Below, piece after piece: positions 4,613 to 21,200 of a stretch of 34,421 nt of DNA (within the stretch, counting starts at the first letter, position 1; every line of letters begins with the position of its first letter). Under the pieces are notes generated by a model, which searched no databases, was not told the DNA's origin, and was given only the letters and a program-made list of their open reading frames with translations. The position numbers and the translations under genes were made by a program. The stretch spans positions 1 through 34,421 of the forward strand of contig CAKZVF010000247.1 of NCBI GenBank assembly GCA_937921995.1, written 5' to 3'. Source of the DNA: an uncultured Pirellulaceae bacterium. GTDB taxonomy: Bacteria > Planctomycetota > Planctomycetia > Pirellulales > Pirellulaceae.

Positions 4613-5449
4613 TTACTCGACTGAAATCCGCGTTGAGAAACTGTGGGTTTCGCCTTTGCCCACAGACACCGCGCGGTCGTTGGTGATCGCGGCCTCGATG
4701 CAGACGAAGTTCAGATAATGCTCGTTGGGTAGGTCGCTCAGCGCCTCCGCCTTTTCGATCCACGGGTTCCAGACGACTGTTGAGGGGCTGGCTTTCTTCT
4801 CGATCAGAATCGTGCGCTTTTTCAACGGGTCTTCCAGTCGCACCGATCCGCTGCTGTCGTAGTAACGGTCCACCTCCTGATCGATACGAATCACTCCGTC
4901 TTGATAACGAACTGTATGATCGCCGACGGTGTCCAAGTAGTCCGTGCCTTCCAAGCCTTTGATCGCGACCTCCCGGACGTCTCCTACAGAGAAGTAACTA
5001 TGCAGTGCACCGGAAACCAATAAGGGATCGCCAGCGCGGTTAGTGGATTGGAGCGTCACATCTAAGGAGCTTCCTATGGTAATGATCGCCAGCGCCGACC
5101 ACTGTCCATTGTCGCGCCGAAGTTTTGCTACGACTCCATCGTCGGTGACATCGGTTGATTCCAGCTCCCAAAATTGGTTTCGCACCAGACCGTGCGATGG
5201 GAGATCGGAGTCCGTCGGGTGAGCATTAAACCAAGGCCAACAAAGAGGAATCCCTCCGCGGATTGCTTTACCTTGCCGATAGACTGCATCGGGGCTGAGG
5301 TAAAGGACTTCTTCAGCACCCTCCGGGCACCACGACATGACATGCGCCCCGTGTAACGCTATTTGCCCATTACATTTTGGATGTTTGATCGTCAGCACCG
5401 GGTAGCCGGGAACAAGATCTTCAAGTTGAGCGATTGAGTCTGTATTCAT
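4613..5449 (-). CDS. D-hexose-6-phosphate mutarotase (YeaD-like, aldose 1-epimerase superfamily)
   Basis: This cytosolic enzyme family interconverts the alpha and beta anomers of hexose 6-phosphates. From the ATG at 5449 the protein has 278 residues, the family's normal size; an upstream ATG at 5518 would add 23 residues with no family character, so I chose the internal start. Family features are the RGGIPLCWPWF segment near residues 64-74, H86 in PSHGLVR, the catalytic histidine H150 in SGALHSYF and the catalytic base E252 in VCIEA. Its position beside glycan-degradation genes suggests a role in sugar catabolism. A mutarotase acting on another sugar phosphate or on free sugars cannot be excluded. 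Confidence 0.88.
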   Translation of the reverse strand: MNTDSIAQLEDLVPGYPVLTIKHPKCNGQIALHGAHVMSWCPEGAEEVLYLSPDAVYRQGKAIRGGIPLCWPWFNAHPTDSDLPSHGLVRNQFWELESTDVTDDGVVAKLRRDNGQWSALAIITIGSSLDVTLQSTNRAGDPLLVSGALHSYFSVGDVREVAIKGLEGTDYLDTVGDHTVRYQDGVIRIDQEVDRYYDSSGSVRLEDPLKKRTILIEKKASPSTVVWNPWIEKAEALSDLPNEHYLNFVCIEAAITNDRAVSVGKGETHSFSTRISVE

Positions 5450-5654
5450 GATCCGGATTCTATCAAAAATCTGGCAACGATCCGACCAATGGTATGATTT
5501 TGACCGAACCCAATGCATTCAACGGCGGTTGAAAGGCCAATGACAAATCTTACCTGCGACATGTTCTGGTTTGTTTTCGTCGGTCGAATAAGTAGCCTAA
5601 ACCATTGATCAGCAAGATTCGTCCCCATAAATTCCTATATAGAAGGGCAACGTA

Positions 5655-7052
5655 GTGACATCACGAACAAAAACGAACTCCCGGCTAAGTTCACGGCGGC
5701 GGTTCCTAACCCAAGCTGCCGCGCTAACATCAGCTGCAGCGATTCCCTACACGTTCACCGCGCCACGCAGTTTTGCAAACGAAAAAAAAACAGGCCTGCG
5801 ATTCGCGCTGATCGGGGTGGGCGGTAACGGAACTCGGACCGGTCCGGTTGGCAAACAGTACGCGGATCTGGTTGCGCTCTGCGATGTCGACGCGCGTCAT
5901 CTTGAAGCCGGTAACGGGTTGCTGTGTGATGGTAAGGCTGATCTTTATAGCGACTACCGTGAAGTGCTGGCTCGTGATGATATCGACGTGGTGCAAATAT
6001 CGACGCCCGACCATTGGCACACCAAAATTCTCATCGAGGCGATGCTCTCTGGTAAAGATGCCTATTGTGAGAAACCGCTAACGCTGACGATCGACGAAGG
6101 TAAACTAATCCGAGAGGTCCAAAAGCAAACCGGACGCGTCGTCCAAGTCGGCACGCAACAGCGCAGCAGTTTCGACTTGTTCAACAAAGCCTTGGCCGTG
6201 ATCGCGGACAATCGAATCGGCAAACTAAAAAAGATCACCATCGGTATTGATGCGGGGGGCTGGAGTCCTGAAATTCCTCTGGCGGATGTGCCTGAGGGTT
6301 TGGACTGGGACCGTTGGCTGGGTCCGACGCCCGAGATGCCGTTCCGATATTTGGAAAATCCTGAGAAGGGGAATGACGGAAAGAAACGAAGTTACACCAA
6401 TGGCCATACTCATTTTCGCTGGTGGTACGAGCACTCCGGCGGCAAGCTGACCGATTGGGGGGCTCATCACATTGATATCGCAATGCTGGGAATCGAGGCC
6501 GCGGGGCAGAACAGCGATCCTGTTTCTGTCGGGGGAACATCCAAACACGAAGTCGATTTCAAAGATGGAATGCCGCAGCAGGGCAATCGCTACAACACGG
6601 CGCGTGAATTCGATCTGACGGTTAAGTTTGCTGACAAGGATGTGCAGATGAACATCCGGCACGACGTGGACAACGGGATTCTGTTTGAGGGCACAGGCGG
6701 CCGCATTTTTGTCAACCGAGGCAAACTGGTTGGCAAAGCGATTGAGGAATTGGCGGCAAACCCTCTGCCTGAAGATGCCATCGCAAAGATCTATCGAAAC
6801 ATGCCGGTCGTGAGCAACAATCGAGACGCTCATTGGCTAAATTTTATTCACGCGATTGAGAACCGGACGCTCCCGATTTCTGATGTTCACTCTCACATGA
6901 AAATGCTCAACGTCTGCCACTTGGCCGGCATCAGTTGCCGTTTGGATCGAACCATCCATTGGGATCAGTCCACCGAAACAATCGTCGGTGATGAGTTGGC
7001 TCAAAGTATGATGGCGCGTCCGTACCGAAAAGGATATGAAATCGAAATGTAG
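5655..7052 (+). CDS. Tat-exported Gfo/Idh/MocA family oxidoreductase
   Basis: The 465-residue protein begins with a twin-arginine signal (SRRRFLTQAA, residues 13-22) followed by an Ala-rich hydrophobic segment and a likely cleavage after SFA near residue 41. The Rossmann motif ALIGVGGNGTR (51-61) binds NAD(P). STPDHWH (116-122) and EKP (139-141) are standard family signatures, and HFRWWYEHSGGKLTDWGAHH near 255-275 is typical of the secreted planctomycete branch. The GTG start is supported by AGAAGGG eight bases upstream. It leads a plus-strand group with the fucosidase 73 bases downstream. The substrate is unknown: the superfamily includes sugar dehydrogenases and GH109-type NAD-dependent glycosidases, so it could act on periplasmic fucose or on a glycoside. 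Confidence 0.88.
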   Translation: MTSRTKTNSRLSSRRRFLTQAAALTSAAAIPYTFTAPRSFANEKKTGLRFALIGVGGNGTRTGPVGKQYADLVALCDVDARHLEAGNGLLCDGKADLYSDYREVLARDDIDVVQISTPDHWHTKILIEAMLSGKDAYCEKPLTLTIDEGKLIREVQKQTGRVVQVGTQQRSSFDLFNKALAVIADNRIGKLKKITIGIDAGGWSPEIPLADVPEGLDWDRWLGPTPEMPFRYLENPEKGNDGKKRSYTNGHTHFRWWYEHSGGKLTDWGAHHIDIAMLGIEAAGQNSDPVSVGGTSKHEVDFKDGMPQQGNRYNTAREFDLTVKFADKDVQMNIRHDVDNGILFEGTGGRIFVNRGKLVGKAIEELAANPLPEDAIAKIYRNMPVVSNNRDAHWLNFIHAIENRTLPISDVHSHMKMLNVCHLAGISCRLDRTIHWDQSTETIVGDELAQSMMARPYRKGYEIEM

Positions 7053-7125
7053 TTTCGTAGAGAATGCTGTTTTGATCCACCTATCTTCCCCACCTCAAAC
7101 TTTATTGCAGAACCAACGAGAATCT

Positions 7126-8709
7126 ATGAGAATCAATAGTACCGCATTTGCGATGTTGTTGGCTTGTGTTTGCCTGTTCATCACGGCGGCCGAGAAAACG
7201 AATGCTCAAACAGAAACGAAACCGTCTGAACCATCTGTCCGTTCTGATTTCAAGCCGGGACAATACCCCGAGGTCTATCAACCCAATTGGGATTCATTGG
7301 CCAAACACGGCAGTGCACCTCAGTGGTTAAGCGATGCCAAACTGGGGATCTATTTTCACTGGGGGCCTTACAGTGTTCCGGCGTTCAAGACAGAGTGGTA
7401 TCCCCGTTGGATTCATATTGAGAATCCAAAAAAATGGGGCGCCGGTTCGCGCGAGCATCATGAAGAAAACTATGGGCCGATTGAAGAGTTCGGGTATCAC
7501 CACTTCATTCCCATGTTCACTGCTGAACATTTTGATCCCGAAGAATGGGCGGATCTGTTCCAATCTGCCGGTGCTCGATTCGCTGGCCCGGTCGCTCAAC
7601 ATCATGATGGGTTTTCGATGTGGGACAGTCAGGTAAACCCCAACAACGCTATGCTTGAGGGGCCCAAGCGCGACGTTACCGGCGAATTGTTGGCTTCCCT
7701 GAAGAAGCGCGGCATGAAAACCATTACAACTTTCCATCATTCGTTCACCGGCCAAAGGCAACGTGAAGGCCAACCCGAAGGGGAGCGACCGCTAAGTTAT
7801 TATCGGTACGACAAGGACCTCTTCACATCTTCAGAAGATCCCAAGCTTCGAAAACTGTACGGGAATATGCCGGAGGAGGAATTCAATGAATATTGGCTCA
7901 ACCTCGTTCAGGAAGTCGTTGACAAATACGAACCAGACATGATTTGGTTTGATTCTTGGTTGGACGTTATTCCTGAAGACTATCGCCAGCGGATGGCGGC
8001 TCATCATTTCAATGCTGCCCAATCGCGGCAGCAGGAAGTGGCTTTGATCTGCAAACAACAAGACCTGCCGGATGAATTGCGCGTGCTGGATATTGAACAG
8101 GGTGGGATGAAAGAAATGCCCGAGCGTCTTTGGATGACAGATGTTACGCTCAGTAAAGGTGGTTGGTGCTACGTTCAGGATCAAAAGTACAAACCCGTGG
8201 ATTTGTTGGTCCGCAACATGGTTGATGTCTGGAGTAAACGAGGCGTCGTGCTGCTTAACGTTTCGCCCAAAGCGGATGGTGTCATCATCCAAGAGCAGCG
8301 CGAGCGCCTAAAAGGCTTGGGCGATTGGATGAAGGTCTACGGGGAAGCGGTGTACGGAACGCGACCGCATGCAATTTTTGGCTACGGTGAAGCAGCGATC
8401 AAGGAAGGGCACTTTGGCGGTCAGTCGGCAACGATCAAGTATTCGGCTAAGGACATTCGTTTCACTCGTTCGGCCGATGGTAAAACGATCTATGTGTTTT
8501 TGCTGGGACAACCCAACGCTGGAGACCAGATTATGGTCAAACATCTGGCTAATGGTTCAGAATCTGGTTTCGCGATTATGGATGTTGAGGTGCTTGGTAT
8601 CGACGAAGACTGCGACTGGTCTTATGAAGATGACGTTCTTAAAGTCGTGGCTCCCACCGCCACCGATGCCAACGTCATCACGACAGTATTTAAGGTGGTG
8701 TTGGAATAG
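7126..8709 (+). CDS. Secreted GH29 alpha-L-fucosidase
   Basis: GH29 enzymes release alpha-linked L-fucose from glycans by a retaining mechanism. I placed the start at ATG 7126, giving 527 residues headed by a Sec-type signal (MRINSTAFAMLLACVCLF, cleavage near TNA-Q28), and not at the earlier in-frame ATG 7036, which overlaps the preceding gene and hides the signal. Diagnostic segments are GIYFHWGPYSVP (74-85), the fucose-binding HHDGFSMWDS (159-168), and DMIWFD with nucleophile D276. A general acid/base cannot be assigned by eye, as is usual for GH29. A C-terminal beta-sandwich follows the barrel. It sits between the Gfo/Idh gene and the MFS gene and supplies the likely substrate of the fuconate pathway encoded at 12275-15351. 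Confidence 0.93.
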   Translation: MRINSTAFAMLLACVCLFITAAEKTNAQTETKPSEPSVRSDFKPGQYPEVYQPNWDSLAKHGSAPQWLSDAKLGIYFHWGPYSVPAFKTEWYPRWIHIENPKKWGAGSREHHEENYGPIEEFGYHHFIPMFTAEHFDPEEWADLFQSAGARFAGPVAQHHDGFSMWDSQVNPNNAMLEGPKRDVTGELLASLKKRGMKTITTFHHSFTGQRQREGQPEGERPLSYYRYDKDLFTSSEDPKLRKLYGNMPEEEFNEYWLNLVQEVVDKYEPDMIWFDSWLDVIPEDYRQRMAAHHFNAAQSRQQEVALICKQQDLPDELRVLDIEQGGMKEMPERLWMTDVTLSKGGWCYVQDQKYKPVDLLVRNMVDVWSKRGVVLLNVSPKADGVIIQEQRERLKGLGDWMKVYGEAVYGTRPHAIFGYGEAAIKEGHFGGQSATIKYSAKDIRFTRSADGKTIYVFLLGQPNAGDQIMVKHLANGSESGFAIMDVEVLGIDEDCDWSYEDDVLKVVAPTATDANVITTVFKVVLE

Positions 8710-8783
8710 GATCGCGGTTAAAGTCAACGCCGCATTGCTTCAAATGATTGTTGGTTAATCGCCGGAACCGATCGGCGGTTGAA

Positions 8784-8820
8784 CTTTTACGATCTATTCT
8801 GCCCCTATCTTTTACGACCT
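8784..8820 (+). promoter_or_regulatory. Direct repeat upstream of the MFS gene (possible operator)
   Basis: CTTTTACGATCT at 8784-8795 and CTTTTACGACCT at 8809-8820 match at 11 of 12 bases. They are spaced 25 bases start to start, and the second ends 44 bases before the MFS start codon. Such spacing would suit a regulator binding two sites on one DNA face, but no regulator gene is visible in the window and no promoter elements can be defined. Confidence 0.3.
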
Positions 8821-8864
8821 AGTCCTTCGAGAGCCTCAAGCTGAGGCGGTCTTCGATATTCCTA

Positions 8865-10076
8865 ATGTCAACAACCCAATCCCCTCGCAGCCGCGTTTTG
8901 ACGGCTGCCTTTCTGATTCAGGTCGTCGTTATTGGAATGATGTTTGGCTATGGAGTTTTCTTCAAAGTCTTGGAGGATGAACTCGGCTGGTCCCGAACAC
9001 TTCTCTCCAGCGCTTCGTCTTTGTCGATTCTCGTGATGGGATTCTTTGCGATGGTAGCGGGACAACTGAGCGACCGGTTCGGTCCGCGCTGGGTGCTGAC
9101 GGCGACCGGTTTAACGACCGGCATTGGCTATTTTCTAATGTCGTCGATGACGGCTCCGTGGCAATTGCTGGTGTGCTACGGTCTTCTGGTGGGACTGGGG
9201 TTTGCGACGCATGATGTTGTCACCCTATCGACCGTTGCCAGTTGGTTTCCGCAGCGCCGCGGATTGGTGACGGGAATCGTCAAGGCAGGAAGCGGCTGCG
9301 GACAAATTTTGGTTCCGCTGGTTGTGACTTGGTTGTTGGCCAACGGAGGGTGGCGAAACGCGTTTGCCGTGCTCGGGATCATGGCTGGCGTTCTATTGAT
9401 CGTTTTGGCTCAGTTAATGCGAGGCCAATCCGAGCCGGCGTCAAAGAAGTTAGACCTGTCAAAAGAAAATGACACATCAATTGCGGGGATGAGTTTTAAA
9501 CACGCGCGTAAGGATCGGATGCTGTGGACCTTCTGCGCGATTCAGTTCTGTTTTATTCCCTCCTTGATGACCATCCCTCTGCACATCGTCGCCCATGCCA
9601 CCGACCTTGGCATGACTCGGCAGCTGGCCGCATTGATTCTTTCAACGCTGGGAGCGGCGAGCATCATCGGGCGTTTGGTGGTGGGGCACTTGGTCGATCG
9701 TTTTGGTGCGCGGCGGATCCTTTGCACGTGCCTTTGGGCGTTGCTGGTTTCGTTATTGATGCTTCGTTTTAACAGCGCACCGCTATGGTTGTTTCCCGCT
9801 GCACTGATCTATGGTGCCGCTCATGGCGGACTATTTACCGCGGTGTCACCTTCGGTGGCCGAGTATTTTGGAATGAAATCACACGGAGCAATTTTTGGCA
9901 CCGTGCTTTTCTTCGGCACGCTAAGCGGAACTGCGGGCCCCGTGATTGCCGGCATGCTGTTTGATCGTTTTCAGTCTTACGATACTGCTTTCACAATTCT
10001 CGCGGTGCTTGCCGTCACAGGGTTGCTGCTGGCTTCGTCTTTGCCGCGAAAGTCTCTAACGACTGCGGCCCTCTGA
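8865..10076 (+). CDS. MFS transporter, monocarboxylate/OFA-like
   Basis: The 403-residue protein has about 12 hydrophobic segments in two halves separated by a polar loop (near residues 187-215), the usual plan of major facilitator permeases. The motif-A copies are GQLSDRFGPRWV (66-77) in the first half and GHLVDRFGARRIL in the second. The N-terminal GYGVFFKVLEDELGWSR resembles the oxalate/formate and monocarboxylate porter branch more than sugar-proton symporters. It follows the fucosidase after 155 bases on the same strand. It might import a fucose-derived acid (fuconate) or export lactate or pyruvate, the expected end products of the neighbouring pathway; direct fucose uptake is also possible. 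No Shine-Dalgarno site is visible before the ATG. Confidence 0.88.
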   Translation: MSTTQSPRSRVLTAAFLIQVVVIGMMFGYGVFFKVLEDELGWSRTLLSSASSLSILVMGFFAMVAGQLSDRFGPRWVLTATGLTTGIGYFLMSSMTAPWQLLVCYGLLVGLGFATHDVVTLSTVASWFPQRRGLVTGIVKAGSGCGQILVPLVVTWLLANGGWRNAFAVLGIMAGVLLIVLAQLMRGQSEPASKKLDLSKENDTSIAGMSFKHARKDRMLWTFCAIQFCFIPSLMTIPLHIVAHATDLGMTRQLAALILSTLGAASIIGRLVVGHLVDRFGARRILCTCLWALLVSLLMLRFNSAPLWLFPAALIYGAAHGGLFTAVSPSVAEYFGMKSHGAIFGTVLFFGTLSGTAGPVIAGMLFDRFQSYDTAFTILAVLAVTGLLLASSLPRKSLTTAAL

Positions 10077-10122
10077 TATCCGTTGCTCATGGAACGGCAC
10101 CAAAATACAAGCCCGAAGCGCG

Positions 10123-10160
10123 AGCGAGTGAATCGGAAAGGCTACGAGTATTCACTCGCT
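10123..10160. repeat. Inverted repeat AGCGAGTGAAT, perfect 11-bp arms
   Basis: AGCGAGTGAAT at 10123-10133 is the exact reverse complement of ATTCACTCGCT at 10150-10160, with a 16-base loop. It starts 47 bases after the MFS stop codon. The left arm is preceded by CCCGAAGCGCG, a combination I recall as a recurrent intergenic motif of planctomycete genomes. It may act as a transcript-end hairpin, although no T-run follows. Confidence 0.65.
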
Positions 10161-10180
10161 GACCAGCCTGTTGATTTGGT

Positions 10181-10272
10181 GTGGCATAGGCTTCCAGCCT
10201 GTGATTTAAGTCTTCAGAGAAGACTAAGAGATACAGGTTAGGTGAGCCTCACAGGCTAGAAGCCTATGCCAC
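10181..10272. repeat. Nested intergenic inverted repeat (planctomycete REP/MITE-like)
   Basis: The 24-base arms at 10181-10204 (GTGGCATAGGCTTCCAGCC...) and 10249-10272 are reverse complements with a single mismatch. A second perfect hairpin, AGTCTTC/GAAGACT (10209-10215 with 10219-10225), sits inside the loop. The right arm ends at the base before the stop codon of the convergent intradiol dioxygenase gene. The element could form a long hairpin serving as a bidirectional terminator for the two convergent genes. I recall closely similar sequence as dispersed repeats in Rhodopirellula-type genomes, but could not check this. Confidence 0.75.
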
Positions 10273-11034
10273 TTACCGGCGAGTGGGTTTGGCGACACCA
10301 CCGGTGACCGCGGCGGGAGAATTTTCGTCGGGAGTGATGCCCAATACCAGATCGTGGTTGACCATCAGTTCATTGATCTTTGAATCCAGTAAAGGTTGAT
10401 AAACGCCTGTGATCGCAGCGCGGCTTTGTTCGTCCTTGAAACGCTTGAACAGTCCGTCCCGATCGTTAGCTTTGTTTCCACGGGTGAGCATTTGGGTGGT
10501 CAGCACGCGGTGTCCGTTCATCGAAACCGCAAAGTGAATATGCGGCGTTCGACCCGGATAAGAAACCGGTTTGATCGTCCGAAAATAATACTCGCCCTTG
10601 CGATTGGTCAGGAAGCGTCCGTAACCTTGGAAGTTCGTGTCGCGCTGCTCAGCGCCAACCGAGCGTGTGTGAAGGTAGACTCCCTTACTATCGACTTGCC
10701 AGATTTCAACAAACGCATTTCTCACCGGACTACCTGCGGTGGTCAGCACGCGACCGCTGAGATGAGTGACTTGGCCAACGGCAGGTGTGATCGAATCGTT
10801 GAGGATCAGCAAGTCATTGTCAGTGTCCAGCGGAAGCTTGTCCGGATAGAATGGGCCCTCCGCCATTTCCGGCGTCTTGAAAAGCGCTTCCGCAAATTCG
10901 CCCGGTTTGTCCAGCGCCCGGCACTGACTTCCCCAGCATGCCGCCCCCAAACCTGCCATGGACATGGTGAGGAACCTGCGGCGAGGGATGATCAAGTGCG
11001 TGGGGTTGGCTTTGTGTTGGTGGTTGTGTTTCAT
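10273..11034 (-). CDS. Tat-exported intradiol ring-cleavage dioxygenase-like protein
   Basis: Intradiol dioxygenases open catechol-type rings with a non-haem Fe(III) held by two tyrosines and two histidines. All four candidate ligands are present in this 253-residue protein: Y120 after WQVDSKG, Y159 in SYPGR, and H165/H167 in TPHIHF. The conserved GPFYPD lies at residues 60-65. The N-terminus carries a twin-arginine signal (PRRRFLTMSMAG, residues 17-28) with a likely cleavage after CRA near residue 40, so it should act in the periplasm or outside the cell. A short AGG lies six bases before the start ATG. The gene stands alone on the minus strand, convergent with the MFS gene. The substrate is unknown; export suggests an aromatic compound met outside the cytoplasm. 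Confidence 0.85.
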   Translation of the reverse strand: MKHNHQHKANPTHLIIPRRRFLTMSMAGLGAACWGSQCRALDKPGEFAEALFKTPEMAEGPFYPDKLPLDTDNDLLILNDSITPAVGQVTHLSGRVLTTAGSPVRNAFVEIWQVDSKGVYLHTRSVGAEQRDTNFQGYGRFLTNRKGEYYFRTIKPVSYPGRTPHIHFAVSMNGHRVLTTQMLTRGNKANDRDGLFKRFKDEQSRAAITGVYQPLLDSKINELMVNHDLVLGITPDENSPAAVTGGVAKPTRR

Positions 11035-11259
11035 CAGAACCTGTCAATTGGAGCAACGATGCGAATAGTTAGCTTGCGATGCAATGAGTCTCGCGTCAGA
11101 AATCCGGGCGTTCACAAAATCACGGATCTCTTTTCATCTTACACGAATCTCAACGCCTGAGAGGACGTTTGCGCGAGTAGGATGTTTTCTGTTCCTTTGA
11201 CGTTTTCTACGGGGCGGATACGATAAAGACTTGTTTTTCTCCTTCACTTAGGACCTGCC

Positions 11260-12246
11260 ATGCGTACTCTTCCGATTCTGCTACTTCTGTTGCTCCAATC
11301 ACTGGCCTTCTCTCAGGAGAAAGGAAACCAAGAAGCAACTGCTGTCCACATTCCTTTCGTTTGTAACGCCGGTGAGGTGCACACCTACGATGTCACTGAA
11401 ACGCAGTACAAAAACGGCGAAGAAACTTCCGTTAAGACCGATCGACTTTCACTGGAAATTCTCTCGGTCAACGACGAAAAAATCGTGGCCACGATGAAGC
11501 TGGTTGCCCAAGTTGACGATGCGACGCTTCAGCAGGTCGAATCGGATCCGGTTGCCAAACAGGTCAAGGAACTCTGGGATTCGTTAGTCTTTGAAGTTGT
11601 CTTGGCTCGTCGCGGAGTTTTTTCCGAGTTTCAGAACATCAAAGAAGTCGAAGCAGCCATCGCACAAAATCGCGATTTGGTTTTTGAAATTCTAAACAAG
11701 ATGAAGCCAGCACTAGTGAAGATGGGAAAAGATCCGGCGGAATTCGATCGGCTCATTGCAATGATCATGAAAACTCACGGCGACACTGAAGCCACGCTGC
11801 AAAAGGTGCAGACGCCCCTACTGTTGATTCTAGAATTCGTGAACACCGACCATGAAGTTGGCAAACCAGAAATCAGCCATACAGAAGTCGATATGGGAAA
11901 TGCTACTGGCTTACCCGCAACTGAAACTTATCGAGTCTTAGAGATGGACACCGAATCAAATTTTGCAGTGGTTCAGTTCCAGCGCGTTATTGAGGGCCAG
12001 GAAGCGGGAGAAAAATTTGTGCAAGCAATGGACGCGGCGATTCAGGAACTGGTCCCCGATCACAAGCCACGAACTAGCTTTCCGAAGATTACCGTGCTTT
12101 CAGAGTCCTCCATCAAAGGCAAGATGGACTTGACCTCAGGCTGGCCTCAATCCGTCTTGCGCGTCGTCAAGCTGAATGACTTGGAAAACGACCAATTGCA
12201 ACTTAGACGCAAGATCGAAATCCAGCGCGTCGATTCTAAAAAGTAA
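11260..12246 (+). CDS. Secreted protein of unknown function
   Basis: The 328-residue product starts with a Sec signal (MRTLPILLLLLLQSLAFSQ) whose hydrophobic core is very Leu-rich, with cleavage likely around residue 18. AGGA seven bases upstream supports the ATG. The mature part is acidic and predicted to alternate beta-strands (HTYDVTETQYKNGEE near the N-terminus) with a helical centre (residues roughly 95-190) and more strands at the end. It loosely resembles planctomycete secreted proteins of the DUF6263 kind, which I offer only as a lead. There is no catalytic motif, lipobox or membrane segment after the signal. It is convergent with the fuconate dehydratase gene, only 28 bases apart. 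Confidence 0.75.
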   Translation: MRTLPILLLLLLQSLAFSQEKGNQEATAVHIPFVCNAGEVHTYDVTETQYKNGEETSVKTDRLSLEILSVNDEKIVATMKLVAQVDDATLQQVESDPVAKQVKELWDSLVFEVVLARRGVFSEFQNIKEVEAAIAQNRDLVFEILNKMKPALVKMGKDPAEFDRLIAMIMKTHGDTEATLQKVQTPLLLILEFVNTDHEVGKPEISHTEVDMGNATGLPATETYRVLEMDTESNFAVVQFQRVIEGQEAGEKFVQAMDAAIQELVPDHKPRTSFPKITVLSESSIKGKMDLTSGWPQSVLRVVKLNDLENDQLQLRRKIEIQRVDSKK

Positions 12247-12274
12247 CTGCGAGTGCCGGATTCACAAACGGCCG

Positions 12275-13615
12275 TTACAGCACTTCGTACGCCGCGCCCT
12301 TTTTCTTGGGATCGCGATCGCGCCAAACTTCTCCGTCGGGGAACTGATGCTTTTCGAGGAACTCGGGAACGAACTCCAGTCCCCAGCCCGGTGCCGTCGG
12401 AGCAACGTAGCAGCCATCTTTGACTTCAACCGGATGTTCAACCGATTCCTGAAGGAAATCAATGTACTCGATCATCTGAGTGTCCGAGTGCCCTGAAACG
12501 GCGATCTGATCCCACATGCCGTAGTGCTGGATCATGTTACAAAGCGCGATGCCACCACCGTGTGGACAAACGGGAATTTTATACTTGGCGGCCATCAAAA
12601 TGATCGCCATCACATCGTTGACGCCCGCGACGCGCACCGCGTCGATCTGGCAATATCCAATCGCACCGCTCTTCAATAGCTGTTTGAAGATCACCGGCGA
12701 AGCACCTTGTTCGCCGCAAGCAAAATTGAAACTGGCGTCCGGGAAGGTTTCTGACAGTTCCACGTAACCCAGCACGTCATCCCGCGCAATTGGCTCTTCC
12801 ACCCATTTAAGGTTGTAAGGCAAATATCTCTCAACGTGGCGTTTGGCTTCTTCAACACCCCAGAACTGATTCGCGTCGACCATCAGATTGAGTTCATTGC
12901 CGATCGCATCCCGCATGAACTTGATCCGGCGGACGTCGTCATCAGAATCACGTCCCACCTTCAGTTTGAACGAATCAAACCCAGACTCTTCCAGTTTTCG
13001 GATCGTCGCCAGAATCTGTTCATCGCTCAAACCCAACCAGCCCGCGGTGCAATACGCCTTGGGCCCGACGGGCGTCATTTCGCTTTCGCGTTTTTCGAGG
13101 TTAGGGCGGCAAGCGGAGAGGATTTCGATCGCTTCGTCGCGCGTCAGGGCGTCGCCAATGTTCCGCCAGTCAATGCAATCGGCGACAAACTCCGGTTCCA
13201 GATCCACCAGCAATTTCCACAACGGTTTCCCTTCGGACTTCGCCCAGAGATCCCACATCGCGTTGATCACCGCGCCGGCAGCCATGCGGAAAACACCGTC
13301 ATGCAACCAACGCAACTGGTGATGGTCAATCAATCGACGGTACAGCTTGAACGGCGCTTCCGAAAACTCTTCCAGCGTCGAACCAATGATCAACTGACAA
13401 AGGTCTTCGATGCCGTGGCAGATCCAGTCAGTACCCGCCCCGATAGTAAAGACCACCGAAACGCCTCGCAAACCACCATCGGTTTCCAGATGCAGAACCG
13501 CCGACGAGTAATCCGGTTCCTTGTGAAACGGATCTGATCCCAGCATATTGTCGGACGTGGGCACCCGAAGGTCGATAACGTTGGCGGAAGTAATTTTGAT
13601 CGCTGATTTTGACAT
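12275..13615 (-). CDS. fucD: L-fuconate dehydratase (enolase superfamily)
   Basis: This enzyme dehydrates L-fuconate to 2-keto-3-deoxy-L-fuconate in the cytoplasm using Mg2+. The 446 residues match the length of bacterial FucD and vertebrate ENOSF1. Active-site residues are in the expected order: K217 and K219 in FKLKVG, metal ligands D247 (VDANQ), E273 or E274 (VEEP) and E302 (GEQG), D325 in QIDAVRV and H352 in PHGGGIALCNM. The N-terminal TDWICHGIE segment is also characteristic of fuconate dehydratases among the mandelate-racemase group. It is the last gene of the minus-strand run GH3, SDR, FAH hydrolase, FucD, 61 bases after the hydrolase. A related acid-sugar substrate cannot be excluded, but the fucosidase and downstream enzymes argue for fuconate. 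Confidence 0.9.
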   Translation of the reverse strand: MSKSAIKITSANVIDLRVPTSDNMLGSDPFHKEPDYSSAVLHLETDGGLRGVSVVFTIGAGTDWICHGIEDLCQLIIGSTLEEFSEAPFKLYRRLIDHHQLRWLHDGVFRMAAGAVINAMWDLWAKSEGKPLWKLLVDLEPEFVADCIDWRNIGDALTRDEAIEILSACRPNLEKRESEMTPVGPKAYCTAGWLGLSDEQILATIRKLEESGFDSFKLKVGRDSDDDVRRIKFMRDAIGNELNLMVDANQFWGVEEAKRHVERYLPYNLKWVEEPIARDDVLGYVELSETFPDASFNFACGEQGASPVIFKQLLKSGAIGYCQIDAVRVAGVNDVMAIILMAAKYKIPVCPHGGGIALCNMIQHYGMWDQIAVSGHSDTQMIEYIDFLQESVEHPVEVKDGCYVAPTAPGWGLEFVPEFLEKHQFPDGEVWRDRDPKKKGAAYEVL

Positions 13616-13676
13616 CGTAGGTCGGTTTGAAAGTTGAAGTTCTGAGGGGGGAAGTGGACAAGTCTATACAAGAAGA

Positions 13677-14534
13677 CTACTTCTCTTTAACGGCCGTTTG
13701 TTTTTGCACGCCCAAGCCTTCAATGCCTAATTCGATCACATCGCCATCGACTAGGTACTGCGGCGGCGACATCCCAAACCCAACGCCGGCGGGTGTTCCC
13801 GTTGAAATCACATCACCGGGCAACAACGTCATGAAATCAGAGATATAGCTGACCACCGTGGCAATGTCGAAGATGAAATCGTTCGTGTTGGAATCCTGAA
13901 TCGTTTCGCCGTTGCGTTTGAGCCACAAGTGCAAGTTGTTGGGATCAGCGATTTCGTCAGTCGTGGCCATGAAGGGACCAAAGGGAGCATAAGTGTCGGC
14001 TGATTTGCCTTTGCACCACTGGCCTTCCTTCTCGATCTGCCAAGCGCGTTCTGAGTAATCGTTGTGCACACCGTAGCCTGCGACGTAGTCCATTGCGTTT
14101 TCTTTGGAAACATACTTGGCCTTTTTCCCGATCACGACAGCCAGTTCAACTTCCCAATCCGATTTGTCCGAATCGCGCGGGATCACCATGTCATCAAAAG
14201 GCGCTGCCCAAGCACTTGTGGCTTTGAAAAATAACACGGGCTCGCCTGGAGCCGCCATACCCGATTCAGCCGCGTGTTTGGCATAGTTCAAACCAACACA
14301 GACAATCTTTGACGGCCGCGCAATCGCCGGTGCCAGCCGAACGTCATCCATCTTGACAGTAGGAAGATCAGATTGCTTTTCCTCTAGGAACTTAGCCAAA
14401 CGCGCCAAGCCATCGTTGTCGAAGAAGGCTTCGTTCCAGTCTTCGCCAAACGAAGAACAGTTCACGATGGTCGTGTCGTCAGAGAAAACGGCAGGGATGA
14501 TTTTATTGTCGTCGTAGTAGCGGGTAAGTTTCAT
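13677..14534 (-). CDS. FAH-family hydrolase, probable 2,4-diketo-3-deoxy-L-fuconate hydrolase
   Basis: Proteins of the fumarylacetoacetate hydrolase family cleave C-C bonds of 1,3-diketo acids with a divalent metal. Here the metal triad is visible as E128 and E130 in DWEVELAVVIG and D159 in HNDYSER. KGKSADTYAPFGP and TGTPAGVGFG near the C-terminus are further family signatures. The 285-residue size and the order of motifs fit enzymes that split 2,4-diketo-3-deoxy-fuconate or rhamnonate into pyruvate and lactate. The gene lies between the SDR and the fuconate dehydratase with gaps of 67 and 61 bases, so one transcript is likely. The exact substrate is inferred from this neighbourhood; the family itself is broad. 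Confidence 0.87.
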   Translation of the reverse strand: MKLTRYYDDNKIIPAVFSDDTTIVNCSSFGEDWNEAFFDNDGLARLAKFLEEKQSDLPTVKMDDVRLAPAIARPSKIVCVGLNYAKHAAESGMAAPGEPVLFFKATSAWAAPFDDMVIPRDSDKSDWEVELAVVIGKKAKYVSKENAMDYVAGYGVHNDYSERAWQIEKEGQWCKGKSADTYAPFGPFMATTDEIADPNNLHLWLKRNGETIQDSNTNDFIFDIATVVSYISDFMTLLPGDVISTGTPAGVGFGMSPPQYLVDGDVIELGIEGLGVQKQTAVKEK

Positions 14535-14601
14535 CGGATATTGTTTGTTAGGTTTTTAGATAGAAGTAATAAATCGTTTTGGGCCAGTACGAATCAGCCC
14601 A

Positions 14602-15351
14602 CTATCTCAGCAGCGTAAATCCACCGTCGATATCGTAGGCGCTGCCGGTGATGAATTTCGATTTGTCGGAGCACAAAAACGCCGCTAAATCAGCGATTTC
14701 CTCGGGCTTGCCCATCCGGCCAATCGGTTGAGCCGCTGAAAGTTTCGCCTCCATGGCGGGGCGTTCTTCGTCGCTGAAATTGTTGGCCAGATAACCGTCC
14801 ACAAAAGGCGTGCGGACACGCGCCGGGCAGATACAATTCGCGCGAATGCCTTTATCAATATAGTCACGTGCCACGGACAACGTCATCGTCAGCACGGCAC
14901 CTTTGGACATCGAATAAGCAAACCGATCGGCGATCCCGATCTTGCTGGCGATCGACGCCAGGTTCAGAATCGCGCCACCACCACCTTCGACCATCTTAGG
15001 CACCGCGAAATATAAGCAGTGGTAAACGCCTTTTACATTGATGTTGTAGATTCGGTCCAGTTCCTCCGGCGTGCAGGTTTCCAAGTTCCCGATCGAAGCC
15101 ACGCCCGCATTGTTAACCAACACGTCAACTTGATCCAACTGCTCAAAAGCGGCCTTGACCGATTCGGTCGACCCGACGTCGGTTTTGATGTGCTGAGCCG
15201 TGCCGCCGGCTTGGGTGATCATCTCGACGGTCGCTTCGCCGTTTTCATCGCTGAATTCTAGCAGGACGGCGTGAAATCCGTCGGCGGCTAATTTCATCGC
15301 GATCGCTTGACCGATTCCAGAACCGCCTCCGGTAATGACTGCTGTGGGCAT
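14602..15351 (-). CDS. SDR oxidoreductase, probable 2-keto-3-deoxy-L-fuconate dehydrogenase
   Basis: This 249-residue classical short-chain dehydrogenase has the cofactor loop TGGGSGIG (7-14), NNAG at 80-83 and the catalytic set S133, Y146 and K150 (YSMSK). I start it at ATG 15351, because AGGA lies six bases upstream and the protein then begins with the Rossmann strand; an ATG at 15390 would add 13 unlikely residues. The substrate-lid region ICPARVRTPFVDGYL resembles keto-deoxy-fuconate dehydrogenases of the Xanthomonas type. In the pathway it would oxidise 2-keto-3-deoxy-L-fuconate to the 2,4-diketo acid with NAD+, between FucD and the FAH hydrolase. Alternatively it could be the L-fucose dehydrogenase that is otherwise missing. 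Confidence 0.87.
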   Translation of the reverse strand: MPTAVITGGGSGIGQAIAMKLAADGFHAVLLEFSDENGEATVEMITQAGGTAQHIKTDVGSTESVKAAFEQLDQVDVLVNNAGVASIGNLETCTPEELDRIYNINVKGVYHCLYFAVPKMVEGGGGAILNLASIASKIGIADRFAYSMSKGAVLTMTLSVARDYIDKGIRANCICPARVRTPFVDGYLANNFSDEERPAMEAKLSAAQPIGRMGKPEEIADLAAFLCSDKSKFITGSAYDIDGGFTLLR

Positions 15352-15386
15352 CTTGATTCCTATTTCAATACGGTTAAGTCCGATTA

Positions 15387-15422
15387 CCAACGGACCTGTG
15401 TTTGATCCAACGGACCTGTGTT
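15387..15422. repeat. Short tandem direct repeat between the GH3 and SDR genes
   Basis: CCAACGGACCTGTGTT occurs at 15387-15402 and again at 15407-15422, a perfect 16-base repeat with a 20-base period. It occupies about half of the 74-base gap between the GH3 stop codon and the SDR start. It may be a recent slippage duplication or a paired protein or RNA element inside the operon. Confidence 0.8.
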
Positions 15423-15425
15423 AAT

Positions 15426-17765
15426 TCATTTCAATTCGAATTCAAGTTTCTGCACGTCGACGGAATTACCGCCCACAAAAACCTCGAACTTGCCCGGCTC
15501 GGCAACGAATTCCAGATCCGAATTGAAGAAGCTTAACAGGCTCCGATCAATTTCGAAAGTAACAAGTTTTGTCTCTTGGGGTTGGAGTTCAGCTTTCTCA
15601 AAGCCCTTCAATTCCTTGGTCGGACGACTGATACTGCCGACAAGGTCGCGGATGTACATCTGCACGATTTCGGTTCCAGGCCGCTGTCCAACGTTGGTCA
15701 CTTCTACCGAAAAGGTAACCGTTTGGTCTCCCGAAAGTTCCGTTTTGGAAAGCTTCGGTTGTCCATACTTAAACGAGGTGTAGCTTAGTCCGTGTCCGAA
15801 AGCGTACAACGGATCGTTGGGAATATCCAAGTAATTTGAAGTGAATTTTGGACGCTCCGCCGGAGAAGGCCGGCCCGTGTTGAGCATGCTATGATAGACG
15901 GGGATCTGCCCCACGCTGATTGGAAAGGACGTGGTCAGTTTGCCCGCCGGATTCACGTCCCCAAACAGCACATCGGCGACCGCGTTTCCGGCTTCGGTGC
16001 CCCCAAACCAGACATCCAGAATCGCATCCATGTTCTCCGATTCCCACTGCAAGGTCATCGGCCGACCGTTGAATAAAACCAGTACGATCGGTTTGTCGGT
16101 CTTGGTGAGCGCGTCCAGCAATTTGCGTTGGGAGGGCTGCAATCCGATCGAGGCCATGCTGGACGCTTCGCCAGACATATTCGCCGCTTCGCCCACGACC
16201 GCCACGACGATGTCTGATTTTTCCGCCGCCGCGACAGCCTCTTGGATCAGTTCGTCAGCGCTGCGGTCACTGATGACGATCTCTTTCCCAAATGCGTTTA
16301 CGCGTTTGGCAAGTTGTTCATCGTCGCTAATATTACATCCTTTGGCGTGAACGATCGTCACGTCATCACCGACGGCTTGCTTGAGTCCCGCTAGGACCGA
16401 AACTGATTTCTGCCAGTCACCACTGACACTCCAACATCCCAACATGTTTTGCCGGCTGTCTGCCAACGGACCGACCACCGCGATCGTTCCCTTTTTCTTC
16501 ATCGGTAATGTTTCGTTCTCATTCTTGAGCAGCACAAACGAACGCGCGGCCACGTCCCGCGCGAACTCCCGATTGGAATCAGAGAAGATATCCGTCTTGC
16601 CGCGGTCGGTGTCGAAGTACCGGTACGCATCATCGAACAAACCCAAATCCGCTTTGGCTTGCAACACGCGCCGGCACGCCGCGTCAATCTGAGCCTCGGT
16701 CACGTCGCCGTCCTCCAGCGACTGCTTTAGCGTTGTTAGAAAACCTTCGCCCACCATGTCCATGTCGACGCTCGCGTTGAGCGACATTGCGGCCACGCGT
16801 TTGAGATCGCCCAAACCATGAGCGGTCATTTCGTTAACCGATGTGTAATCGGTGACCACCAAATCATCAAATCCCCAGCGGTCTCGCAAAAGATCTTTAA
16901 ACAGTGCCTTATTACCCGACGCGGGCACATAGTCCACCACGTTGAACGATGTCATCACCGAACCAACACCCGCATCCACGGCGGCTTTGTACGGTGGCAA
17001 GTATTCGTTGTGCATCCGGACTTGGCTCATGTCCACCGTCGCGTAGTCACGCCCACCCTCGGGTGCACCGTAATTGGCAAAGTGTTTCACGCAGGCCAAC
17101 ATCGTCGTCGGCGCGGTCAGATCATCCCCTTGGTAGCCACGCACCATCGCCGCCGCGATCGCAGATCCCAGAAACGGATCTTCGCCGGCACCTTCAGCGA
17201 TGCGTCCCCAACGTGGATCCCGCGCGATGTCGACCATCGGTGAAAACGTCCACATCAACCCATCGGCGGTCGCTTCCTTGGCGGCCGCTTTGGCGGTGGC
17301 TTCGATCAACTCCATGTCCCATGTGCATGACAGCGCCAGCGGAATAGGAAAGATCGTTTCGTGACCATGAATCACGTCCATCCCCGTCAGCAGCGGAATC
17401 TTCAGGCGGCTTTGTTCGGAAGCAATTTTTTGCAGTTGCCGGACTCTGTCAATTCCACGAATACCAAACACGCCTCCGACTTTGCCTGCAGCGATTTTGG
17501 CTGCGACATCTTTACTGACAGACGTTCCCGTTACCGCGCCGCCGGGTGTCAGTAGGTTCAGCTGGCCGATTTTCTCGTCCAGCGTCATCTTGGCCAACAA
17601 ATCGTCGATCGAAAAATCGGCTTTTTGAGCGGCAACGGTCGGCGCTGCTTGCTGGTCTATCGTTTGAGACGCCACCGGCGCTTGGGGTGATTGAGCAATC
17701 GCCGATTGCTTCATCATCAGCCCACAACAAGCGATGGAAAACGTAAGATAAAATAGTGGTTTCAT
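15426..17765 (-). CDS. bglX: Secreted GH3 beta-glucosidase (BglX-like)
   Basis: GH3 enzymes remove terminal beta-linked glucose or related sugars. The 779 residues show the BglX layout: signal peptide to about residue 25 (SAIAQ), the (beta/alpha)8 domain with GMDVIHGHETIFPIP (128-142), KHFANYGAPEGGRDY (227-241) and nucleophile D306 in VVTDYTS, then the alpha/beta sandwich domain, and a C-terminal fibronectin III-like domain (VTNVGQRPGTEIVQMYI). The usual SDW/SDY at the nucleophile is TDY here, a conservative change. GAAGG lies about ten bases before the ATG. It is the first gene of the minus-strand run leading into SDR, FAH hydrolase and FucD, suggesting that the target polysaccharide contains beta-linked hexose or xylose beside fucose. 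Substrate specificity within GH3 cannot be read from sequence. Confidence 0.93.
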   Translation of the reverse strand: MKPLFYLTFSIACCGLMMKQSAIAQSPQAPVASQTIDQQAAPTVAAQKADFSIDDLLAKMTLDEKIGQLNLLTPGGAVTGTSVSKDVAAKIAAGKVGGVFGIRGIDRVRQLQKIASEQSRLKIPLLTGMDVIHGHETIFPIPLALSCTWDMELIEATAKAAAKEATADGLMWTFSPMVDIARDPRWGRIAEGAGEDPFLGSAIAAAMVRGYQGDDLTAPTTMLACVKHFANYGAPEGGRDYATVDMSQVRMHNEYLPPYKAAVDAGVGSVMTSFNVVDYVPASGNKALFKDLLRDRWGFDDLVVTDYTSVNEMTAHGLGDLKRVAAMSLNASVDMDMVGEGFLTTLKQSLEDGDVTEAQIDAACRRVLQAKADLGLFDDAYRYFDTDRGKTDIFSDSNREFARDVAARSFVLLKNENETLPMKKKGTIAVVGPLADSRQNMLGCWSVSGDWQKSVSVLAGLKQAVGDDVTIVHAKGCNISDDEQLAKRVNAFGKEIVISDRSADELIQEAVAAAEKSDIVVAVVGEAANMSGEASSMASIGLQPSQRKLLDALTKTDKPIVLVLFNGRPMTLQWESENMDAILDVWFGGTEAGNAVADVLFGDVNPAGKLTTSFPISVGQIPVYHSMLNTGRPSPAERPKFTSNYLDIPNDPLYAFGHGLSYTSFKYGQPKLSKTELSGDQTVTFSVEVTNVGQRPGTEIVQMYIRDLVGSISRPTKELKGFEKAELQPQETKLVTFEIDRSLLSFFNSDLEFVAEPGKFEVFVGGNSVDVQKLEFELK

Positions 17766-18277: not shown

Positions 18278-21200
18278 CTACCTGTTAAACAGCCAGTCGC
18301 GCATCCGCAGCAGCACGCCGCCGCGCTGCGCCGACACATCTCCGCACCCGCAGCAGTTTGAACACGCTTCGCACGCTTCACACGGGATCGTTTCTTCGAC
18401 GCAGGCTGAGCACTCAACGGTTTCCTGGCAAACGTCTTCGGTGATCACGCATTCTTCAACAATTTCCGTTTCGCAGCCGGAAATCTCTTCGGCCACAATC
18501 GACTCTTCACAAGGAACACACGCCTCGTTTGGTGTGACTGCGGCGAATTCAGTCGCATAACCACCCGTCACCGTTCGGCTGCTGTTGAGCGACAGAGGAT
18601 TGGCGTTGCTGGCGATTGGAACGCCCGAGTAGATCGGGCCCGGTCCGCCGAGGAAGTTGTTGATGCGGTTGCTTAGTAACTGACCATTGAAACGTGGAAG
18701 TAGGGGCAGCTGAGACGGATTGCCAGAGGTTCCAGAACGCAGTTCTCCAAAGTTGTTATTTTGTAGACTTTCGCCGAAGCCAAGATTGATACCATCGAGC
18801 TGATCATCGCCAACCGATGCCGCGGCGTTGGAACTGTCGATGCCGTCGCTGAACTGATTAGGTTGCGTTTCGGTCACGTTGTAGACGCCCGCAACGAGAT
18901 TCTCAAACAAGTAATTCCCTGCCGCGTCGGTCAACACCGTAAGATCAACGGCGTTTCCATAAACATCGGTGCCGGTCAAGTTGATCTCGACACCGGCGAT
19001 GCCATTTTCGCCCGGATCAAAAATTCCATTGTTATTATCATCGACGAACACCGTTCCCGAAATCTCTCCCAAAGGAGCCGCCGGCGGAGTGAAGGAGGTG
19101 ATGTCGCTGCTCGAACCGGTGTCATCGGGTGACCCGGCGTTGGTGGAACCTGGATCGGTGCCGCTGTCGCTCAGGTCGCTCGCGACGATCGGGTTGCCTG
19201 AAGAATCAAGCAACGCATTGCCGCTGCTGTCGATGGCTCCGGCAGTTGCCGAAATCTGATTGCCAACGCTGCCGGCCACGTTGGTGGGGTCGAGCTCAAC
19301 ACTGAACTCAAGCGTGAAGGAATCACCGACCGCCAAAACGCTGCTGCCTGTGTCCAACATCTCCGTCGTGGCCGCCCCATCAAAGGGCTCATTAACGGCG
19401 ATGTTGCTTGCAGAATCCGATGGGGCATCGGCCAATTGCAATCCGCTGACTCCCACAAACGCGCCGCCAAACTGAGTGGCAAGATCTTCTTGCAAACTAA
19501 GACTGGCCAGATCAGCCGTTCCCGTGTTCTCAACAACGACAGTGAAGGTAACCAGATAATTTCCATTGGCCAGCAGATCAGGCTCTCCCGCGATGGCCTT
19601 GGCCACGCCCAAGTCCGCGATCACGATGTCGGTGACATCGTCGATCTCTCCCGACGGGTCGGTACCGCTGTCGCTGTCGTCAGTCGCGACCACTGGATTG
19701 CCACTGCTGTCGGTCATGACCGAACCATCGGGGTTGATGCCTTGCCCCGAAACGGTGGCTTGATTGCCAAGCGATTGAGCCGGGCCGGCCGCGTCGGGGT
19801 CGATGGTGATCGTAAATGTGATTTGGAACGAAGCACCCGGATGCAGCACACCGCCGGTGATCATGTTCTGTGAAGTGTCGCCTGTCCAAGCGGGATTGAT
19901 TGTCGGCGGAGTTCCAATGCCTTCGGTGTTCAAAATGATCGGTGTCGAAGTCGCCACCAAAGCCGGACCGAATTTGGCCGTCACGTCGTCGTACACCGTC
20001 AGGTTATCCAAGGCCACATTGCCAAGGTTCCCCACGACGATGGTGAAGGTCACATCAAAGTTGTCTCCATTAGGCACCGCATCAGAAACGTCCTTGGCCG
20101 ATCCGATGGCCGCTTCGTTGATCGTAATGGTGACCGTTTCGGTTTCCTCGTTGCCATACTCATCGACCACCGTGTACTCAAACGTATCCGCGCCCGAAAA
20201 ACCGGCAAACGGAGTGAAGGTGAACGATCCATTTGGATTCATCACCACCGTACCGCAATCGGTCACGATCGGCGATCCAATAGGCTGCCCATCAACCTCC
20301 GTGACCATCAACAAGTCTCCATCAGGATCCGAATCGTTGGTCAGGACGTTACCAACAAACAGCGTATCAATATTGGTGAAGTAGTCATCGGGGTTAGTGA
20401 CCGGTGATCCGTTGATCGTGGTCAACACATCGTCGGCGGCGGGATCAATGGTCGGCGAAAGTCCGCTGCTGCTGGAAGGATTACTCAGCGCGATCACGTA
20501 GTCTTCAGGGGCTTCGCTGATGCCGTCGGAGGTGATGGGCAATTGGATAATCAAATCTGCCATCGATGCACCATCGGCAGGTGCCGTGTAAGTCAGTGTT
20601 CCCGTGGCGGGATCAAAGACAACGTCCGGGTTGGATGCGGCAGCAGCGCTGATCGCGTTGATCAAGCTTCCATAGTCGCCGCTGGTCGTGTTGATGTCCG
20701 TCAAACCGATATTGACCGAAACAGTTTCCCCGGATTGGAAAACGCCAGCGAGCGAAACCGTGTAGTCGGCCGTTGAACCTTCGCCCGTCACCGCAGGCCC
20801 CGCAACCGACCACTGAGCGTCATCGTTGTCGATGATCGTCGTCGTGACAAGATTGTCCGTTGCCGAAATCGTGGGGCTCAAACCGGTTGTGCTGGACGCA
20901 TTGGAGATCGCCAAGTTCAATCGTTCATTGCCTTCGATCAACAAATCATCAAACGAAGTAAAAGTCACCTCCAAATTATTCATTGCACCGGTGCCGTCGC
21001 TGACGAAGGTCAAAAAGGTTCCGTCCCAGCTGAGCGTGCCCGGGTTGGCCGGATCGTTGTTATAGGCCACCACCGCTGCGCTGACCGAAGCACTCACATT
21101 GGAGTAGTCGCCGCCATTGGTTTCGATGTCGCTGACGCCAAACTGAACCGTCGCCCGTTCGCCCGTTTGAAGATTGCCCGTCAAACCAATGCTGAACGTG

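Follow-up and report, generated by a model that had tools for sequence, protein, structure and literature searches.

The window analysed here is the whole of contig C247 (34,421 nucleotides) in the draft genome of an uncultured Pirellulaceae bacterium (4.82 Mb, 329 contigs, 77% complete, 5.35% contaminated). It probably carries the lower half of route 3, the oxidative, non-phosphorylating pathway for L-fucose, with candidate genes for the upper half located elsewhere in the same draft genome. An earlier sequence-only reading of the window had proposed an oxidative, non-phosphorylated route of this kind, proceeding without lactaldehyde in a planctomycete, and this is still the best explanation of the genes found. 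Gene content, gene families, conserved linkage and an arginine signature were observed directly, and every reaction and substrate named below is a prediction. The nearest named locus (L142), whose L-fuconate dehydratase-like protein FucD is 96% identical to that of the window, comes from an uncultured Pirellulaceae bin, so the earlier description "planctomycete-like" was correct; this 21-kb locus and its genome (G246) are referred to as the sister stretch and the sister genome.

Gene block and proposed pathway

The central unit is a minus-strand block at positions 12275-17765, transcribed in the order GH3-SDR-FAH-FucD with intergenic gaps of 35, 67 and 61 bases (frames as listed), where GH3 is a glycoside hydrolase, SDR a short-chain dehydrogenase/reductase and FAH a hydrolase of the fumarylacetoacetate hydrolase superfamily. 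All genes named earlier were recovered as full open frames with family matches, which confirms the joint occurrence of a fucosidase (GH29), a fuconate dehydratase, an SDR resembling L-2-keto-3-deoxyfuconate (L-KDF) dehydrogenase and an FAH-type hydrolase. Positions 5655-17765 had been taken as one cluster; the genes are indeed there, but only GH3-SDR-FAH-FucD form a tight unit. The GH29, major facilitator superfamily (MFS) and Gfo/Idh genes all lie on the opposite, plus strand, GH29 at a distance of 3.5 kb from the block, and an intradiol-dioxygenase-fold protein and a protein without known family are encoded between these three genes and the block.

In the proposed pathway, the GH29 enzyme would release L-fucose outside the cell, and FucP, encoded on contig C129, would take it up. 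The aldo-keto reductase (AKR) encoded beside FucP would convert L-fucose to L-fucono-1,5-lactone, a lactonase encoded on contig C57 would open the lactone to L-fuconate, and FucD would dehydrate L-fuconate to L-KDF. Oxidation of L-KDF at C4 by the SDR with NAD+ would then yield a 2,4-diketo acid, which the FAH enzyme would cleave to pyruvate and L-lactate. Lactaldehyde would never be formed, and a microcompartment would therefore not be needed. The Gfo/Idh and MFS genes can be dispensed with in this reading.

Enzymes of the lower half

FucD (12275-13615, minus strand) is, by score, an L-fuconate dehydratase-like member of the FucD family of MR/MLE enolases, with human ENOSF1 (4a35, 383 bits), 4ip4 (365 bits) and the Xanthomonas L-fuconate dehydratase 1yey (349 bits) as its best PDB matches. 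The catalytic columns of the superfamily are intact (KxK, Asp-Glu-Glu, Asp/His and Glu383 are invariant across the 10 rows of alignment A1), and L-fuconate is the predicted substrate. The subclade to which this FucD belongs occurs in Pirellulaceae and Verrucomicrobiales.

The FAH-superfamily hydrolase (13677-14534, minus strand) is of the 2,4-diketo-3-deoxy-L-fuconate/rhamnonate hydrolase type; its best family is NF053535 (299 bits), and in the PDB it matches 8gsr, an L-2,4-diketo-3-deoxyrhamnonate (L-DKDR) hydrolase, with 220 bits. According to a passage of PMC11199699, the substrate of L-DKDR hydrolase is the same compound as L-2,4-diketo-3-deoxyfuconate (L-2,4-DKDF), because C4 is the centre that is lost.

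The SDR (14602-15390, minus strand; its true start is probably the ATG at 15351) has 4dqx as its first PDB match (167 bits) and the L-KDF dehydrogenase 8xwk as its second (157 bits); 4dqx is placed near type 2 of the L-KDF dehydrogenases in a passage of PMC11199699. The same source gives four patterns at positions 148-183-192-214 (R-T-R-R, R-T-Y-R, R-R-R-T and R-R-F-T), with an enzyme active on L-KDF for each, R-R-F-T being type 4. The window SDR and SDR-like frames from 100 of the longer loci were aligned to 8xwk, giving 42 rows besides the window. The window SDR has arginine at 148 and 183, as in types 3 and 4, with tyrosine at 192 and alanine at 214 (R-R-Y-A), and can be called type-4-like. 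Both arginines are present in 22 of 22 SDRs at least 47% identical to that of the window and in none of the other 20; among the former, seven show R-R-F-T exactly, 14 show R-R-F/Y-Y, and the sister shares R-R-Y-A with the window, while the latter comprise five of type 1 (R-T-R-R), all beside a canonical FucD, and 15 without any of the patterns. All 26 rows examined retain the Ser-Tyr-Lys triad, and position 41 carries an acidic residue, which suggests NAD+ as the cofactor. Since its signature resembles that of L-KDF dehydrogenases, the SDR fits the fourth step and not the first; a role as the initial enzyme was rejected on the arginine pattern.

Linkage in other genomes

Relatives of the window FucD were found at 61 loci in public genomes. 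Most of these are from Pirellulaceae and Verrucomicrobiales, and Latescibacterota, Gemmatimonadota and Acidobacteriota contribute one row each. The genes SDR-FAH-FucD stand in the same order in 17 of them, namely three Pirellulaceae (L142, L147 and L148) and 14 loci of Verrucomicrobiota type, one of which (L199) is titled only "Bacterium" and two of which (L187 and L196) are truncated on one side. An extra gene separates FAH from FucD in L165. This recurrence argues that the clustering is more than chance. The open reading frame lists omit genes that overlap a longer spurious frame, as happened with the intradiol dioxygenase of the window, FucD in L172 and L179 (two of the 14) and FAH in L041 and L043, and tblastn was used in these cases instead.

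A further SDR family is common to 10 of the 61 loci; the single member tested, from L170, has as its best match 4gkb/4gvx, the Burkholderia multivorans L-fucose dehydrogenase FucA (280 bits), followed by 6drr and then HSD17B14. FucP follows FucD in two loci, L165 and L170, and the latter also encodes an FMN-dependent dehydrogenase, from the family to which the L-lactate dehydrogenase LldD belongs, and a RhaM-type mutarotase domain. This linkage to FucP and a FucA-like SDR in other genomes is the strongest evidence for L-fucose as the sugar.

Candidates for the upper half

The sequence-only reading had called for a genome search for a fucose dehydrogenase and a COG3618-type lactonase, and both searches gave candidates. 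On C129, the L-fucose:H+ symporter FucP (TIGR00885, 470 bits against a cut-off of 280) is encoded directly before an AKR, which is the one match in the window's genome to the AKR of the fucose cluster in genome G095 (53% identical); by this context and identity it is a candidate for the first enzyme, catalysing L-fucose dehydrogenation. Two Amidohydro_2 (COG3618-like) matches were found, the stronger on C57 and the other on C6. The C57 protein has L-fucono-1,5-lactonase (NF052480, 226 bits) as its best family and matches PDB entry 4dlf with 148 bits; it is the weakest link of the pathway. The tetranucleotide profiles of the C129 and C57 stretches correlate with that of the window at 0.94 and 0.95, against 0.92 for the sister stretch and 0.72-0.87 for six other family members, which counts against contamination without excluding it. 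FucD and AKR co-occur in 13 of the 246 genomes of the order against 2.7 expected, a figure not corrected for kinship.

Other genomes show the same genes in different groupings. G095 (L038, 5624-12386), which belongs to the same taxonomic order and has no shell genes, carries a complete cluster FucP-AKR-FucU-lactonase-FucD-SDR-FAH. G127 (L207, 4217-7956) contains an upper-half cluster, lactonase-FucU-AKR-FucP, with members 57-64% identical to known ones and apart from any FucD, for which no match was found in this genome at E 1e-60. G091 combines the AKR with a duplicated FAH-SDR pair (L116, 8428-10083; L117, 8315-9968), at 61% and 51-52% identity to that of the window; no FucD match was found there at the same threshold, and another dehydratase may take the place of FucD.

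Weighing the interpretation

Several observations weigh against this reading. The window SDR pattern, R-R-Y-A, matches none of the four assayed patterns, and the FAH enzyme and the C57 lactonase remain under their family cut-offs (299 bits against 500 for NF053535; 226 against 400 for NF052480). The only FAH relatives in G113, G117, G121 and G180 are weaker, at no more than 216 bits. Against the five canonical-type rows of A1, the window FucD reaches 43-46% identity with four and 39% with the fifth, and the motifs after three barrel strands differ, being EPIARDD, GEQxASP and HGGGIALCN in its subclade and EPTSPDD, GEQCQNR and HAGGVGLCE in canonical enzymes; its substrate may therefore have shifted. 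In several Pirellulaceae the closest FucDs stand alone, with no SDR or FAH adjacent. In the upper half, the C129 AKR has no informative family match, and the C57 lactonase is 60% identical to a G240 lactonase located beside UxaE, a FucU-like protein and another kind of AKR, against 40% to that of the G095 cluster. Finally, the two halves are spread over three contigs of a draft with 5.35% contamination.

The leading alternative, though we consider it unlikely, is that these enzymes act on L-galactose derived from glycans of the porphyran or agar type, with GH29 as an exo-alpha-L-galactosidase, the AKR as an L-galactose dehydrogenase and FucD acting on L-galactonate, to give pyruvate and glycerate. 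L-Galactose is 6-hydroxy-fucose, and GH29, FucP-type carriers and AKRs could serve it too; the GH29 protein matches the exo-alpha-L-galactosidase 7ljj and the alpha-L-fucosidase 7snk equally, as its best PDB entries (289 bits each), and all four PDB matches of the AKR are L-galactose dehydrogenases, at 35 bits or less. Against this, the lower block corresponds to that known for L-fucose, adjoined by FucP or a FucA-like SDR in Verrucomicrobiota loci, and the best match of FAH is a 6-deoxy-sugar hydrolase. A lactonase, a zinc-dependent alcohol dehydrogenase, a UxaE-family epimerase and an AKR stand in a row in G113 (L203, 2634-7169), the AKR and lactonase being related to those discussed here; L204 (G117) is similar by gene sizes alone, and L121 (G240) has a related set. 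We infer that such enzymes would fit conversion of L-galactonate to tagaturonate and fructuronate, and a row of the L203 type may represent a route for L-galactose by way of L-galactonate and tagaturonate.

It is very improbable that FucD of Pirellulaceae has another, older role and that the window block is a chance assembly with an SDR and FAH for another keto acid: a lone FucD does occur in eight control planctomycetes that retain the microcompartment, but the identical three-gene order is found in 18 genomes of two phyla, in some with fucose genes adjoining. An L-rhamnose pathway (L-rhamnonate dehydration, 4-dehydrogenation of 2-keto-3-deoxyrhamnonate and a shared hydrolase) is hardly credible, for although FAH best matches an L-rhamnonate-pathway hydrolase and the diketo intermediate is common to both sugars, the dehydratase scores about 349 bits to the PDB L-fuconate dehydratase against only 47 to rhamnonate dehydratase, and the SDR bears the arginines of L-KDF dehydrogenases.

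Microcompartment shells and the oxidative block

The shell family PF00936 of bacterial microcompartments (BMC) is present in 202 of the 246 genomes of the order. The search for shell genes that the sequence-only reading had suggested gave none in the 77% complete draft genome of the window, and none in the sister genome, whose completeness is unstated. L-Fucose isomerase (PF02952) gave no match in the window's genome, but only four of the 14 genomes searched match this family and the misses include shell-bearing ones; Aldolase_II (PF00596) gave three matches in the window's genome.

Outside the order-wide survey, the shell search covered genomes for 22 loci that we selected from the 61 (17 block loci, L181 and four lone-FucD isolates), and four more loci belong to genomes of that survey; it left out L188 (FucD with a type-4 SDR on the opposite strand and no FAH), the lone-FucD Verrucomicrobiota L152, L154-L156 and L161, and many lone-FucD Pirellulaceae. 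Shells are lacking in 18 of 18 genomes with the window-type three-gene block, i.e., the window's own and those of L142, L147, L148, L165, L166, L170, L172, L174, L175, L179, L180, L182, L183, L184, L187, L196 and L199. They are present in all eight lone-FucD planctomycetes tested (L145, L146, L168, L191, G113, G117, G121 and G180) and in Aporhodopirellula (L181), where FAH but no SDR lies beside FucD. Within the window's family supplemented with L142, L147 and L148, shells were found in none of the four block-bearing genomes and in 46 of the 48 others (p 5.5e-5). One more member of this family, G125 (99% complete), agrees with this pattern: it has no shells and carries an R-R-F-T SDR and FAH on one contig, with a canonical-type FucD and an AKR elsewhere. 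A lone FucD of the window's subclade, with no adjoining SDR or FAH, was seen in the shell-bearing planctomycetes L145, L146, L150, L164, L168, L171, L176 and L191.

No simple negative association between FucD and BMC emerged across the order: of the 28 genomes with FucD, six are without BMC (Fisher p 0.38). Nor do block and shell strictly exclude each other, because the canonical FucD-SDR-FAH block occurs with shells in G024, G099 and G123 and without them in G086 and G095, so that three of these five genomes have both routes. Order-wide, BMC is lacking in 13 of the 24 AKR genomes against 31 of the 222 others (p 2e-5); this link may follow kinship, since family f7, by our reading rather than by computation, is often without BMC regardless of AKR.

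The segregation of block and shell is thus a lead rather than a result. The block-bearing Pirellulaceae comprise four draft bins (4.6-4.8 Mb), which probably represent two lineages, and the 14 other block genomes are mostly Verrucomicrobiota bins of unstated completeness. The lone-FucD Verrucomicrobiota fell outside the sample, and shells occur in only some members of that phylum (4 of 8 Akkermansiaceae in a passage of PMC8857213). We regard as doubtful the scenario in which the lactaldehyde-free, window-type block replaces the microcompartment route in Pirellulaceae and some Verrucomicrobiota, an SDR-FAH pair of perhaps Verrucomicrobiota-like source having joined an old lone FucD, the shell operon having been lost and the lone FucD of shell-bearing relatives being a side branch; its odds are lowered by the three genomes with both the canonical block and shells. 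The earlier view of the block as an alternative to the microcompartment route does not mean "instead of" for the group as a whole, some members of the order carrying both.

Origin of the block

The SDR tree places the window and its sister within a group otherwise made up of 12 Verrucomicrobiota rows and L199 (98/95), apart from the Pirellulaceae L147 and L148. The window FAH is grouped with 13 Verrucomicrobiota rows, L199, the sister and Aporhodopirellula (100/100), and a quick FucD tree of modest support (83) puts the window's protein among Pirellulaceae rows. Acquisition of SDR-FAH by transfer is plausible from these placements, although the tree tool itself cautions that multiple changes do not amount to proof. 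Any transfer could have run in either direction, because immediately outside the Verrucomicrobiota-rich SDR set there branches a row from a planctomycete, L050 in G150 (88/68).

Neighbouring genes

The first gene of the block encodes a GH3 beta-glucosidase-like enzyme (15426-17765, minus strand; NF011678 BglX, 912 bits, exceeding the cut-off of 666). On the plus strand are the genes for the GH29 alpha-L-fucosidase family enzyme (7036-8709; PF01120, 305 bits), a Gfo/Idh/MocA oxidoreductase with a twin-arginine-like leader as read from the sequence (5655-7052; PF01408, PF19051), an accessory MFS transporter (8865-10076) and hyp328 (11260-12246), which has a signal-like start and no Pfam or NCBIfam match. 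The minus strand also encodes an aldose 1-epimerase family protein (4613-5518; PF01263, 139 bits) and an intradiol ring-cleavage dioxygenase-fold protein with a twin-arginine-like leader (10273-11034; PF00775, 91 bits); the latter occupies the same place in the sister genome and lacks an obvious part in fucose use.

The sister stretch keeps GH29 (90% identical), the intradiol dioxygenase (91%), hyp328 (88%) and the aldose epimerase (86%) nearby, and Gfo/Idh, MFS and GH3 were not found in its 21 kb. This bears on two earlier suggestions. The first, that the exported Gfo/Idh protein or the SDR could supply the initial step, gained no support: the SDR signature fits the fourth step, and Gfo/Idh is unneeded as a fucose dehydrogenase, as none was found in the sister stretch and an AKR adjoins FucP; it is probably outside the pathway. 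The second, import by the MFS protein of fuconate made in the periplasm, found no support, and with an L-fucose symporter in the genome such import is not needed. The MFS protein is most like L-lactate carriers (NF049980, 225 bits, under the cut-off of 320), which would rather suit the pathway product.

A promoter/terminator scan of the block gave seven promoter-like sites (3.7 expected) and 18 terminator-like ones (7.1 expected), and was not used as evidence. Beyond the block, positions 18278-34300 (minus strand) are a single 5340-aa frame rich in Calx-beta domains and also containing some LapA, SdrD-B and cadherin-like ones, resembling a giant surface adhesin; its GC content is higher and its tetranucleotide profile unlike that of the remaining window (r 0.73). 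A Fic/DOC-family protein with a Fic_N domain is encoded close to the contig start (790-1569, plus strand).

Comparison with known systems

The route itself is already known, and its occurrence in shell-less Pirellulaceae is a modest new part; no report of it in Pirellulaceae was found in the open-licence literature, judged by titles and passages. The implied novelty is weakened by the assay of a planctomycete L-KDF dehydrogenase in PMC11199699, a paper in which the term planctomycete does not occur, and by fuller clusters in the same order, some with shells. The same route is described in an actinobacterium in a passage of PMC12263773, where it is said to have been reported for sponge Verrucomicrobia (Sizikov 2020), a work whose title, as given in the reference list of PMC10444878, names microcompartments. 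For Pontiella genomes, fucD is listed with fucI and fucA in a passage of PMC7356697.

For annotators, the divergent FucD subclade and the type-4-like dehydrogenase signature are features to search for. The place of the oxidative route in planctomycetes may also help to test why some bacteria need a compartment, and relatives within one family or order with a shell, the oxidative block or both are natural material for testing its advantage. Planctomycetes are thought to handle algal fucose and rhamnose in microcompartments because lactaldehyde is toxic, a route reportedly described by Erbilgin in 2014. The Planctomycetes-Verrucomicrobia BMC route for these sugars, described in passages of PMC8857213, runs via fuculose-1-phosphate and lactaldehyde in the shell, and the same paper asks whether the compartment is of advantage over a cytosolic oxidative route, noting that bioenergetic studies are missing. 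The sugar and the phyla are the same as for the window, but that route is shell-bound and passes through lactaldehyde, whereas the window's genome shows no shell gene.

The full cluster of G095 has every step in one row, with a canonical-type FucD (46% identical to that of the window) and a type-1 SDR. Route 3 is present in Xanthomonas campestris, too. In Phycisphaera mikurensis (Planctomycetota), PSMK_RS04265 was assayed as a type 3 L-KDF dehydrogenase, according to a passage of PMC11199699; it is a planctomycete SDR with the pattern R-R-R-T against R-R-Y-A in the window, from a different class, the Phycisphaerae. The non-phosphorylating L-fucose pathway given as route 3 for Herbaspirillum huttiense in the same source likewise has the dehydratase, L-KDF 4-dehydrogenase and L-2,4-DKDF hydrolase together, and transporter, dehydrogenase and lactonase candidates are present in the window's genome. 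The latter differs in having the two halves on separate contigs, a divergent FucD subclade, a type-4-like rather than type-1 SDR and an AKR as the candidate first enzyme.

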